Below are positions 32,173 through 37,472 of a DNA stretch of 64,000 nucleotides, piece by piece (positions within the stretch are counted from its first letter, which is position 1; each line of letters starts with the position of its first letter). A program made the position numbers and the translations under genes. The notes under the pieces are model-generated. The model had not been told where the DNA came from and made no database searches. It saw nothing but the letters and a program-made list of their open reading frames with translations. This DNA is from Mariniblastus sp. (GTDB lineage: Bacteria; Planctomycetota; Planctomycetia; Pirellulales; Pirellulaceae): contig JAKVBG010000002.1 of NCBI GenBank assembly GCA_022447605.1, positions 124,001-188,000 on the forward strand. Reading direction: 5' to 3'.

Positions 32173-32297
32173 ACCGCTTTGGCGGGTAGCGGGTGACTGG
32201 GTCCACTCGCTGCCAACCGTGAATCACCCATGTACGAACCCAACAACTGACCGTTTCGAGACAATTCCCGCAGTGTCCATAAAAGGAGCAGGTGAAC

Positions 32298-35200
32298 ATG
32301 GCAATTGCCGACACCTCATACGAACGAGTTAATGATTACGCTTCGGTAAAAATCAGTTTGGCGCGACCCCATGACATTCGCAGCTGGTCGATGGGAGAAG
32401 TCAAGAAACCGGAAACCATCAACTACCGAACCTACCGGCCTGAAAAGGACGGTTTGTTTTGTGAGCGTATTTTTGGTCCGGAAAAAGACTGGGAATGTGC
32501 CTGCGGTAAATACCGAGGCATGAAATACAAAGGGATGATCTGTGACCGTTGTGGCGTCAAAGTGACCCATTCCAGGGTTCGTCGCAAGCGGATGGGGCAT
32601 ATCGAACTGGCCGCACCGGTTGTCCATATCTGGTTCTTCAAAGCGATGCCGAGTCGTTTGGGGAACCTGTTGGCGATGAAGACCAGCAGTCTCGAAAAGG
32701 TGATTTATTTTCAGGATTACGTCGTCACCGATCCCGGCACGACCGAACTCGAAAAACAGCAGTTGTTGACCGAGGAAGAGTACCGAGCCGCCAAGGCGCA
32801 GTTTGGTGCGGATTCCTTCAAGGCCGGCATGGGCGCTGAGGCCGTGCGGTCATTGTTATCCGATTTGGACCTGGTCGAGCTTTCCGGACAATTGCGTGTC
32901 GAATTGGCAGAAACCGGTTCCAAGCAGAAAAGGAAGGACCTGACCAATCGCCTGAAGATCGTGGAGGCGATCCGTGACAGTGACAACAAGCCCGAGTGGA
33001 TGGTCCTCGATGTCATTCCGGTCATTCCACCCGACCTGCGGCCTCTGGTTTTGTTGGATTCCGGCAATTTTGCCACCAGTGACTTGAATGACCTCTACCG
33101 TCGGATTATCAACCGGAATAACCGGTTGCGGAAACTGGTTGACCTGAACGCACCCGAAGTGATTATCCGCAACGAAAAACGGATGTTGCAGCAATCGGTC
33201 GACGCTCTGTTTGACAATAATCGTTGCAAGCGACCTGTTTTGGGCAGCAGCAACCGGCCCCTCAAATCCTTGACCGACATGATCAAGGGTAAGCAGGGAA
33301 GGTTCCGTGAAAATCTGTTGGGCAAACGGGTGGACTATTCGGCCAGGAGTGTGATTGTCGTCGGTCCAAGGCTCAAATTGCACCAATGCGGCTTGCCAAA
33401 GAAGATTGCCCTGGAACTCTATCAGCCCTTCATCATTCGCAAGCTCAAGGAACTGGGGCACGCCGATACGATCAAGAGCGCCAAGAAGATGCTTGAGCGC
33501 AAAGATGAAGAGGTTTGGGATATCCTCGAGTTTGTCATCAAAAATCATCCGGTTCTGCTGAACCGGGCACCCACCCTGCACCGGATGGGGATCCAGGCCT
33601 TTGAGCCGACCCTGGTCGAAGGGAATGCGATCCATTTGCACCCGTTGGTTTGCAAAGGATTCAACGCCGACTTCGATGGTGACCAGATGGCTGTCCACCT
33701 GCCGCTGTCGATCGAGGCCCAAGTTGAGGCGCACACCTTGATGTTGTCTACCAACAACATCTTTGCACCTTCCAACGGTAAGCCGATCATGAGTCCTTCT
33801 CAGGATACGGTGATGGGTTGTTATTACATAACCCTGATGCTGCCCAACCAGCTTGGTGAGGGTATGGTCTTCAGCTCGCTGGACGAAGCCGACTCGGCCT
33901 TTTCCCAGGGCATCATCACGATGCATGCCAGGATCAAGGTGCGGTTACCGGAATCGCAATTTGTCCGCACCGGCGAGGAAGAGCGGTTGCCCGGTCAGAT
34001 TATCGAGACTTCGTACGGTCGTGTCCTGTTCAACATGATGTTGCCTGAAGGGATGGATTTCTACAACTATGGAATGCGTAGTGGTGATCTCGCTACCGTG
34101 ATTTCCGACTGTTACCAGGGACTCGGTCGCCGCGCGACGATCAACCTGTTGGACGACATGAACCAGCTTGGTTTCCGCGAGAGTACTCGCAGTGGTCTTT
34201 CGTTTGCGACCGATGATCTGGTGACCCCCGATAGCAAAGAAAAGATTGTTGCCGAGGCGGAGAAAGAGGTGTTGAAGTACCGTAAACACTATGAACGGGG
34301 TGTGATTACGGAAAAAGAGCGCTACAACAAAGTGCTCGATACTTGGACACACGCTCGTGAGAGCATTACCAAGGAAATGATGTCGGCCATGGAAGTTGAC
34401 GACCGGGGTGGCATGGGCTACGTCAACCCGGTTTACCTGATGGCTCATTCAGGTGCCCGTGGTGGTGTCGAGCAGATTCGACAATTGGCCGGTATGCGGG
34501 GTTTGATGGCCAAGCCGACCGGCGAGATCATTGAGACGCCGATTAAGGCCAACTTCCGGGAAGGCCTTTCCGTGCTGGAGTATTTCAGTTCGACCCACGG
34601 TGCCCGAAAAGGATTGGCCGATACCGCGTTGAAGACGGCCGACTCTGGTTACTTGACCCGTAAGCTGGCGGATGTGGCCCAGAACGTCGTGATCACGATG
34701 GACGACTGCGAGACGACCCAGGGGATCACCAAGGGTGTTATTTACCGGGGTGAGCAGGTCGAGGTGCGGTTAGCAACGGCCATTAATGGACGGGTTTCTC
34801 GTCAGAATATCGTCAATCCGGTCACGGACGAGGTGATTGTCCAAGAGAACCAGATGATCACCCCGGAAATTGCCAGGAAGATCGAACAGATGGGTCTCGA
34901 GAAGATCCAGGTTCGCAGCCCGATGACCTGCGAGGCGTCTCTGGGTGTCTGCCGTAAATGTTACGGGATGGATATGTCGACCGGTGCCGAAGTCGAAGAG
35001 GGAATGGCGGTTGGTATCATCGCGGCCCAGAGTATTGGTGAGCCGGGGACCCAGTTGACCATGCGGACGTTCCACATTGGTGGTGTGGCCAATACACAAA
35101 CCGAGGAAAATGAACGGAAGTGCAAGAAGGCTGGTACGGTCAAACTGACTCGTATGCGGTACGTTACCAACTCCAGCGGCGACACAGTTGTTTTGAACCG

Positions 35201-37472
35201 AAATGGTGAAATTGCCATTCTCGATCCGCGGGGACGTGAACTGGAGAATCATACGGTTCCCGCAGGTGCGGTCCTGAAAGTTGAGGATGACTCGACCGTC
35301 AAAGCCGGCCAGGTGTTGTGCCAATGGAACCCGCACGCGGTTCCCGTATTGGCCGAAGTCGGTGGCCGTGTACGGTTCGAAGATATTGTCGAAGGGGAAA
35401 CGGTCCAGTCGGAAAAAGACAGTAGTGGAACCGTCCGGCGGACCATTATCGATTTCAAGGGGGACATGCATCCCCAGATCGTGATCGAAGATACCGACGG
35501 CAAGCCGTTGGATGTCTACTATTTGCCCGAGCGGGCGAACGTCATGGTCGACGAGGGCGATACGATCTCGGCCGGTTCGGCCGTTGCCGAAACACCGCGC
35601 GAGTCCTCTGGCGTATCTGATATCACCGGTGGTTTGCCGCGAGTGACAGAGATCTTTGAAGCCCGTAAACCGAAAGACCCGGCCGTCCTGTCCGAGATCG
35701 ATGGTGTGGTTGAGATTTTGGCCGAGAAGAAACGTGGTAAACGGATGATCATCGTCCGTAACGAAGCGGGTATCGAGGTTGAACACCTCGTACCACCCGG
35801 AAAACGATTCCGCGTCCATACGGGTGATTTCGTAAAAGCAGGTCAACAATTGATTGATGGGCCGTTGGTGCCCCACGATATTCTGCACGTCTCCGGTGAA
35901 GAGGCCGTTCAGCAATACCTGACCCATGAAATCCAGAGCGTTTATCGAAGCCAACGGGTCGAAATCAACGACAAGCATATCGAGATCATCGTGGCCCGAA
36001 TGCTCCGCAAGGTGAAGATCGAAACGACCGGCGATACCAGCCTGTTGCCCGGGTTGGTCTGCGATCGCTTTGATTTCAACCTGGTCAATGAAGAGCTTGC
36101 CCGGTCGCTCAAGATTTCGGATCCGGGTGACAGTGACTTTAGCAAGGGACAAATTGTCAAGAAAGTCATTGTCGAGGACACCAACTCGAAGATTGAAGCG
36201 TTGGGTGGCAAGCCTGCCAAGGGCAAGAAACCGGCTTCGGCCACTGCCAGTACCCAGTTGCTTGGGATTACCAAGGCATCGGTACAGAGTTCCAGCTTCA
36301 TTTCGGCTGCCAGTTTCCAGGAAACGACCAAGGTTTTGACCGAGGCGGCCCTGTCCGGGAAGATTGACAATCTGGTCGGATTGAAGGAGAACGTCATCCT
36401 GGGCCACTTGATCCCAGCCGGTACCGGGTTCCGTACTTTCCAGGATTCGGATGTCCAGTACAACCTGGAAGCGCTGCGGTCGATGGCCGCTGCCCCGATT
36501 CAATCACTGGAGGAGACGTTCCCGCTGTTGGAGCCAGGTTCGTCGGCAGTCCCGGCTTCCGGGGACACGCCTCAAGTGGGACTGGATGTGATGACCGGGA
36601 CCTTTGATGATCCTTCGGTGGTAAGCGGTGACAGTTTGACCGGGGCGGCGACGATCGAGATGCCGGTGACTGAGTCGGCCCTGGAGACAGGTCCAAATGA
36701 TTTAACCCAAATCGTGGGCATCGGCCCTGACGTGGCAGAGATGTTGAATGCCTTCGGCATCACCACCTATTCCGACCTGGCAAGTCGTACGCCGGACCAG
36801 ATCCGGGAAATGCTGGGCCCCCAGTTCGCCTCTTGCGATCCGACCACCTGGTCCGACCAGGCTCAGCTTGCCGCTTCGGGAGACTGGGAGGGGTTGCGTG
36901 CCTGGCAGTCCCAGTTGTCCGGAGGTGGGGAAGTCGCAGTCGAAGTTGAAGTCGCGCCTTCAGCACCAGCTACGCCGGATGACCTGACACGTATCAACGG
37001 TATCGGTCCTGAAGTTGCCCAGGTCCTGGTGGCCAGTGGCATCGGGACGTATGCCGATCTCGCCGCGATGAGTGCCGAACAGATCAATTTGCTGTTGGGA
37101 GGCGATTCGGCTGCCCATGACTCGTCCACTTGGCCGGGACAGGCCCAAATGGCAGCTGCCGGCCAATGGGATGACCTGCTGGCCTGGCAGGGTCAACAGG
37201 ATCGGGGCCAGTCGACCCATGCGGCGGATGACCTGAAGTTGATCGAAGGGATCGGGCCAAAAATAGAAGAGATCCTAAATGCTGCAGGAATAACAAGTTA
37301 CGTCCATCTTGCCGGTGTCACTTCCCAGCAGGTCGCCGAGTTGCTCGTAGCTGCCGGGAACCAATATTCGGCTCACGACCCGACGACTTGGCCGAATCAG
37401 GCCCAGATGGCGGCCGAGGGGCGGTGGGAAGAGTTACGCGCCTGGCAGGAAGAGCTCGATGGCGGGCAATAG
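32298..37472 (+). CDS. rpoC: DNA-directed RNA polymerase subunit beta' with C-terminal triple-repeat extension
   Basis: 1724 residues from the ATG at 32298, with AAGGAG nine bases upstream (the GTG at 32292 is too close). The zinc ribbon is CACGKY...CDRCG near residue 70, the catalytic Mg site is NADFDGDQM (D458, D460, D462), the bridge-helix/trigger-loop region includes [27 protein letters not shown], and the second zinc site ends in CRKCYG. The ordinary protein ends near residue 1381 ([13 protein letters not shown]). An Ala/Ser/Pro linker follows, then three repeats at 1467-1724, each a helix-hairpin-helix-like GIGP unit plus W-x2-QAQ-x-A and a final AWQ. Confidence 0.97.
36696..37469 (+). 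repeat. Three tandem HhH-like repeats coding the RpoC C-terminus
   Basis: Repeat starts are at 36696, 36978 and 37227 (about 94, 83 and 81 codons). Each reads [ND]DL-x3-x-GIGP-x5-L-x3-GI-x3-Y-x-LA, then D-x2-TW-x2-QAQ-x-AA-x-G-x-W-x2-L-x-AWQ. The pattern resembles COG3743-like helix-hairpin-helix domains appended to other proteins. Confidence 0.85.

Follow-up and report, generated by a model that had tools for sequence, protein, structure and literature searches.

The RNA polymerase beta' subunit (RpoC) encoded in the analyzed stretch of Mariniblastus sp. DNA (64,000 nucleotides, hereafter the window) ends in three acidic HhH modules, and this tail is a genuine, clade-wide extension of the polymerase that is maintained by selection. 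No description of HhH domains on RpoC was found in the open-licence literature searched, which has most subscription papers beyond its reach, and within that literature the remark of an initial annotation, made from the sequence alone, that no function had been described for such a tail still stands. To our knowledge, it is rare for the core subunits of bacterial RNA polymerase to acquire a new domain at a terminus; in the present case an acidic HhH array is found on one of them throughout a clade, kept under purifying selection and with modules duplicated more than once. RpoC is also a tractable case, with a single tail on a single polymerase, a terminus that can be deleted and a bait for pull-downs, so that the role of a widespread and unexplained module becomes directly testable.

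The fusion is seen directly in the window, where rpoC is an uninterrupted open frame of 1726 aa (Table 1), listed with a GTG start (ATG is the third codon) and matching the NCBIfam model rpoC_TIGR with 1721 bits. As the initial annotation had noted, the normal end of the core is followed by a low-complexity linker, whose length is about 80-130 residues in the tail-bearing genus and 88 in the window. Three modules of 77-80 residues come after it, and the stop lies one residue past module 3. Of the roughly 340 extra residues with three HhH-like repeats that had been proposed, the threefold motif is present, but the novel part, consisting of the three modules and their spacers, is smaller and comprises 258 residues from residue 1469. 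From 'VLTEA' to the end of RpoC there are 379 residues in the window versus 93-152 in five relatives from its family that lack HhH, whose RpoC ends are acidic and of low complexity. Among 21 RpoC rows that are intact, one has two modules, 10 have three and 10 have four, and in all 21 the last module sits 1-2 residues from the stop, i.e., at the extreme C-terminus.

Table 1. Position of rpoC and of the parts of its C-terminal tail in the window.
Feature	Position	Strand	Evidence
rpoC with C-terminal HhH array	32292..37472	+	open frame, Pfam, NCBIfam
Acidic low-complexity linker, 88 residues, from PAGTGF (residue 1380, core end) to module 1	36432..36695	+	
HhH module 1, residues 1469-1545	36696..36926	+	profile E 6.6e-34, structure prediction
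Spacer, 17 residues, low predicted confidence	36927..36977	+	
HhH module 2, residues 1563-1639, ends DRG	36978..37208	+	profile E 4.5e-31, structure prediction
HhH module 3, residues 1646-1725	37227..37466	+	profile E 1.9e-38, structure prediction

The assignment of the tail to the HhH superfamily is based on a profile score above the curated cut-off together with a G-x-G hairpin between two helices. Against Pfam, the window tail matched HHH_5 over three stretches (E 1.3e-17, 64.5 bits, cut-off 27), DUF4332 (E 1.8e-15), Cdd1 (E 4.4e-13) and other HhH models, while RNA_pol_A_CTD (PF03118) gave no match up to E 1. The G-x-G hairpin is found at module positions 8-10 in all 88 RpoC modules recovered by profile search, and in the predicted model of the tail helices flank it. 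The best NCBIfam matches were to the models of L21 (8.5e-24, falling on the C-terminal part of the model), NuoE (1.2e-20), the phasin PhaH (1.9e-20) and S2 (1.8e-15), all under the whole-protein cut-offs because the tail alone is in common. On module 3 these stretches stop at its residue 43-69 of 81, and thus leave the last helix (W-x-x-L-x-x-WQ-x-x-L-x-GG) uncovered. The tail is therefore homologous in sequence to the C-terminal HhH domain of L21/NuoE/S2/PhaH, which we take to be COG3743. By sequence, the nearest solved chains in a PDB profile search were RC protein O and NuoE, both belonging to membrane complexes; DNA polymerases IV, beta and iota as well as RadA were present among the best 60 of 68 PDB matches of a single-module profile (A2), and phmmer matched the tail to Topoisomerase V at E 0.99.

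The fold of the tail is predicted. An AlphaFold2 model built on the tail alignment (A3, 19 rows) reached a mean pLDDT of 86.8 and a pTM of 0.41, and consists of three all-helical beads, with pLDDT below 50 only between them; the pTM implies no fixed orientation among the three. A Foldseek search with this model returned 206 matches, none at E 0.001 or better. Among the best 50 of these, all weak, RadA ranked first (E 0.21), NusA was found at ranks 3, 8 and 26 and, judged by an incomplete title, at rank 2 (E 0.29-1.6), and the others included chains of Rad51 type and of Y-family polymerases, along with unrelated proteins of helical fold, e.g., myoglobin. The HhH identity and the COG3743-like kinship suggested by the initial annotation, together with the profile search against HhH families that it had proposed, are thus borne out by Pfam, NCBIfam and a predicted structure of the HhH kind, the lack of such folds having been named there as a ground for rejection.

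To follow the tail among relatives, 60 genomes were searched, 28 of which belong to the genus of the window (g1, the genome of the window counted). Profile searches recovered RpoC modules in 26 of the 28, with 2-4 in each and 88 in all; the RpoC C-terminus was not found in the other two (G011 and G013). Elsewhere in the family, RpoC frames measure 1432-1543 residues in nine plus four other genera, and six fetched sequences from other genera (L081-L086) showed no terminal HhH by reading. At the phylum level, 368 of 392 genomes gave an RpoC match. Among the matches listed, ten long sequences from other parts of the phylum, a set without G270 (1893, at a contig edge), likewise showed no terminal HhH by reading, their length coming from an upstream open frame, internal extras (L201, L202) or low-complexity ends. 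In addition, the tail as query matched 16 of 294 phylum genomes at E 0.001 or better, with host frames outside the window of at most 1218 aa. In Bacteroidota, the module was detected in 33 of 296 genomes (E 1e-15 or better); no host frame exceeded 776 aa, which means that none of them is RpoC, and in viral contigs 82 pattern matches yielded no confirmed module. The tail is thus a lineage-restricted RNA polymerase domain in the sampled genomes of the phylum and the domain. In a quickly built RpoC core tree, with SH-aLRT support only, the 26 rows that carry the tail group together as one clade (SH-aLRT 100) versus 16 rows without a tail. These 26 comprise 23 rows from g1 and three records (L096, L098 and L105) that branch just outside it, and therefore the gain of the tail looks slightly older than the genus.

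An assembly or frame error as the source of the tail was considered and rejected, since the tail is found in a one-contig genome of 6.57 Mb (G025) and in assemblies that, by their titles, come from several projects. Some MAG copies of RpoC are themselves broken or cut, by frame breaks (G007, G027), an N run (G026), an in-frame stop plus a contig end (G008) or a contig end (G018). The comparison of RpoC ends across Planctomycetes called for in the initial annotation thus shows the tail in close relatives, whose lack of it would have pointed to such an error, and its absence from the other genera sampled.

Conservation and selection are likewise observed directly, and the RpoC modules are under strong purifying selection. 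The dN/dS estimates (NG86) for ten close pairs were 0.008-0.019 in the RpoC core, 0.025-0.115 in the linker and, in the nine computable pairs, 0.014-0.047 in the modules; several pairs have a dS above 1 (some saturated) and one was incomputable. In most pair comparisons the linker evolves faster than both the core and the modules. W..Q[AS] and WQ are kept in all 88 modules and the terminal GG in 87, the only exception being module 2 of the window (DRG). These counts come from the profile-found modules with no motif filter. An earlier pattern, which demanded the hairpin, WQ/LQ and GG, gave 77 modules and missed module 2 of the window; invariance in that set is thus partly built in. The module tree indicates positional orthology within subclades as well as recent duplications, e.g., of modules 3 and 4 of L056, and its deep forks are weak, including those bearing on an origin from the L17 of the genus or from Bacteroidota. 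A number of modules varying from two to four, with lineage-specific duplications, suits multivalency. The same variation, along with that of linker lengths, could also be expected of a tolerated spacer or solubility tail without a specific partner, a reading made very improbable by the module dN/dS, near that of the polymerase core, and by the motifs invariant in 88 of 88 modules.

The acidity of the tail was read from the modules themselves. Each of the 88 RpoC modules has a negative net charge, from -5 to -10 (mean -7.4), and the modules of other hosts have a mean of -4.0 and a range from -10 to +3 (72 rows, including four from the RpoC fragment L106). For a comparison by column, 86 RpoC and 68 other-host modules were used, both pattern-picked with the hairpin demanded and with L106 left out. 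Basic residues occur at column 4 in 2/86 RpoC versus 53/68 other-host modules, at column 46 in 0/86 (35 RpoC rows gapped) versus 54/68, at column 57 in 0/86 versus 24/68, and at columns 67 and 73 in 13/86 and 6/86 versus 50/68 and 34/68, respectively. K/R is more common in RpoC at column 5 (69/86 versus 45/68), at column 70 (38/86 versus 12/68) and just after the module (column 82, 36/86 versus 2/68), and after the hairpin (position 12) it is present in 51 of the 86 RpoC modules. On balance, and as far as sequence allows to judge, the RpoC modules look shifted away from nucleic acid.

The G-x-G hairpin is typical of DNA-binding HhH, and as it is intact in the RpoC modules, contact with the DNA backbone could still be made. 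It is conceivable, though unlikely, that the beads act as additional alpha-CTDs, gripping DNA upstream or the nascent RNA and thereby raising processivity or promoter affinity. We keep this possibility because the modules share superfamily-level similarity with DNA-binding HhH, and the invariant hairpin, the K/R at positions 5, 12 and 70, the DNA-polymerase and RadA HhH among the PDB matches, the first rank of RadA in Foldseek and the match to Topoisomerase V would agree with it. A nucleic-acid grip is disfavored by the acidity of all modules, the rarity of basic residues at columns 4, 46, 57, 67 and 73, and the lack of a match to RNA_pol_A_CTD in the tail. The non-specific DNA binding considered in the initial annotation is accordingly disfavored by the uniform acidity and the nearly empty basic columns, while the hairpin and the K/R following it would still allow contact with DNA. 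Of the ligands listed there, a partner fits best.

We tentatively favor a reading of the tail as a flexible and multivalent docking arm through which RNA polymerase binds proteins. With a linker of about 80-130 residues, the two to four acidic HhH beads would dangle from the beta' C-terminus and may keep a partner (a transcription factor, an alpha-CTD protein or a component of the translation machinery) close to the polymerase during transcription, much as AR1 and AR2 at the end of NusA do in E. coli. We infer both the protein binding and the service to the polymerase's own partners. According to two reports, the repeats AR1 and AR2 are acidic; AR2 is a dual HhH that binds only one of alpha-CTD and SuhB at a time, and when NusA is not on the polymerase its repeats keep it autoinhibited (PMC6614801, PMC12297416). 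The RpoC tail is like them in its class of fold, its acidity, its tandem arrangement and the place where it acts, and for this reason the docking arm is favored: both are tandem acidic HhH ending a polymerase-bound protein. Unlike the NusA repeats, the modules occur in up to four copies and are located on beta', covalently part of the enzyme, and not after the KH domains of NusA, which is a separate gene.

In sequence, the tail profile A3 matched E. coli NusA 347-470, a stretch with a net charge of -21, at E 0.002, and hhalign of the tail with the NusA repeat of the same order gave a probability of 86 (E 4.9e-6, 37 columns); NusA was absent from the best 60 of 68 PDB matches of profile A2. In Pirellulales, NusA (L300:591-2024, L259-L274) has one degenerate acidic HhH repeat and an acidic low-complexity end in 15 of the 17 loci listed. 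The second hairpin glycine is missing in this repeat, and G-x-G is not kept in the 15. The acidic repeats of NusA can be taken as the best functional analog, with similarity at the superfamily level. That level, the lack of a Foldseek match at E 0.001 or better, the hairpin invariant in RpoC and not kept in the NusA repeats of the order, and the higher frequency of K/R in RpoC at positions 5 and 70 and just past the module all weigh against the docking arm. A replacement of NusA's own repeat by the tail was rejected, as NusA in the genome of the window keeps its HhH.

Unusual candidate partners of a docking arm in the same genome would be a 441-aa protein with twin alpha-CTDs (L298) and a frame of 139 aa that has a single alpha-CTD. 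The former (L298:518-1843) is encoded on contig C146, outside the window, and carries two PF03118 domains (E 6e-21 and 1e-20) and further repeats that are TPR-like by eye; the latter is on contig C101. The alpha-CTD, too, is small, helical and HhH-like and is joined to the core enzyme by a flexible linker; the tail differs from it in having no PF03118 match up to E 1. Lineage-restricted domain repeats on core RNA polymerase, e.g., beta'i6 and SBHM repeats, are described in PMC2939025. The tail resembles these beta/beta' insertions as a large, lineage-restricted set of domain repeats on the core enzyme but is terminal, made of HhH and on a flexible linker, and not composed of inserted SBHM repeats.

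The recurrence of the module on other large complexes was also observed, and the tail is, by sequence comparison, built from a widespread module that is likewise found at the ends of ribosomal, NuoE, NrfD-like and reaction-centre proteins. The domains of the L21/NuoE/S2/PhaH models and of RC protein O are its clear homologs near protein C-termini, from which RpoC differs by its 2-4 copies in series. As stated in PMC12079452, the C-terminal domain of RC protein O is not visible in the RC-LH1 map and common to NuoE and others, and its functions in these proteins are called obscure. A scan of genomes for the module gave at least 80 loci, 18 of which were by reading RpoC and 62 other hosts. Hosts tested with Pfam that bear the module at the C-terminus include L27 (L122, L245, L246 and L102, the last with three modules), S16 (L147), S6 (L156, L239), L19 (L124), L20 (L033), L17 (L137, L243 and the congener L075), L21 (L138, L255), NrfD (L128, L241) and six-S1-domain proteins taken as S1 (L168, L116, L120, L251). 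For L245, L246 and L255, Pfam gave the ribosomal domain alone (E 0.001 or better) and the modules rest on profile A2. L074 is a further module-bearing L17, by reading alone. Several tagged proteins can occur in one genome, e.g., S6, L27, S1 and NrfD in G451. Tagged ribosomal proteins are found in Planctomycetota, in Bacteroidota (many of them Saprospiraceae) and in one record titled Gammaproteobacteria.

Given these hosts, the tail might touch the ribosome directly, with the module as a tag shared by the machinery of gene expression. Such coupling would be in keeping with the presence of the module on the L17 of two congeners (one of which, G012, also has the RpoC tail), on the L20 of a planctomycete from a different family, and elsewhere on L17, L19, L21, L27, S1, S6 and S16, as well as with the contacts between RNA polymerase and the 30S subunit known in E. 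coli (PMC5655137). We consider it distinctly improbable, since the window genome's own L17 has no HhH, a tagged L17 was seen in no more than 2 of the 28 members of the genus (L074, L075), and the tagged proteins vary by lineage and include the NuoE, NrfD and phasin families, so that the tag lacks specificity for coupling. The L17 of the window's genome (L297:1351-2070, minus strand) ends in an acidic low-complexity tail.

It is similarly improbable, if slightly less so, that one mobile HhH module serves as a common address tag for RNA polymerase beta', ribosomal, complex I, NrfD-type and photosynthetic machines in several lineages and wires the polymerase of the Mariniblastus clade into that network; recognition of the tag, in place of NusG or direct contacts, would then bring the polymerase together with the ribosome or with a shared hub protein. 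A somewhat better, still low, chance is given to self-association, in which the beads would bind each other or like-tagged proteins and cluster polymerases into foci. The multivalent bead-and-linker build would suit it, as would the recurrence of the module on many complexes, of which single Saprospiraceae genomes have several. Against self-association, profile A2 has three matches in the window's own genome (E 0.001 or better), all of them in RpoC, and the uniform negative charge would disfavor simple homotypic packing.

Some further hosts were noted along the way. Saprospiraceae have NrfD-like membrane proteins with a C-terminal HhH module (L128, L241 and, by reading alone, L244), and a 314-aa protein with a C-terminal HhH (L256:292-1233, minus strand) is phasin-like by eye alone. 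In two Bacteroidota proteins, L252 (Pfam-tested) and L258, a starch/glycogen binding domain and a lysine-rich stretch are combined with the HhH module.
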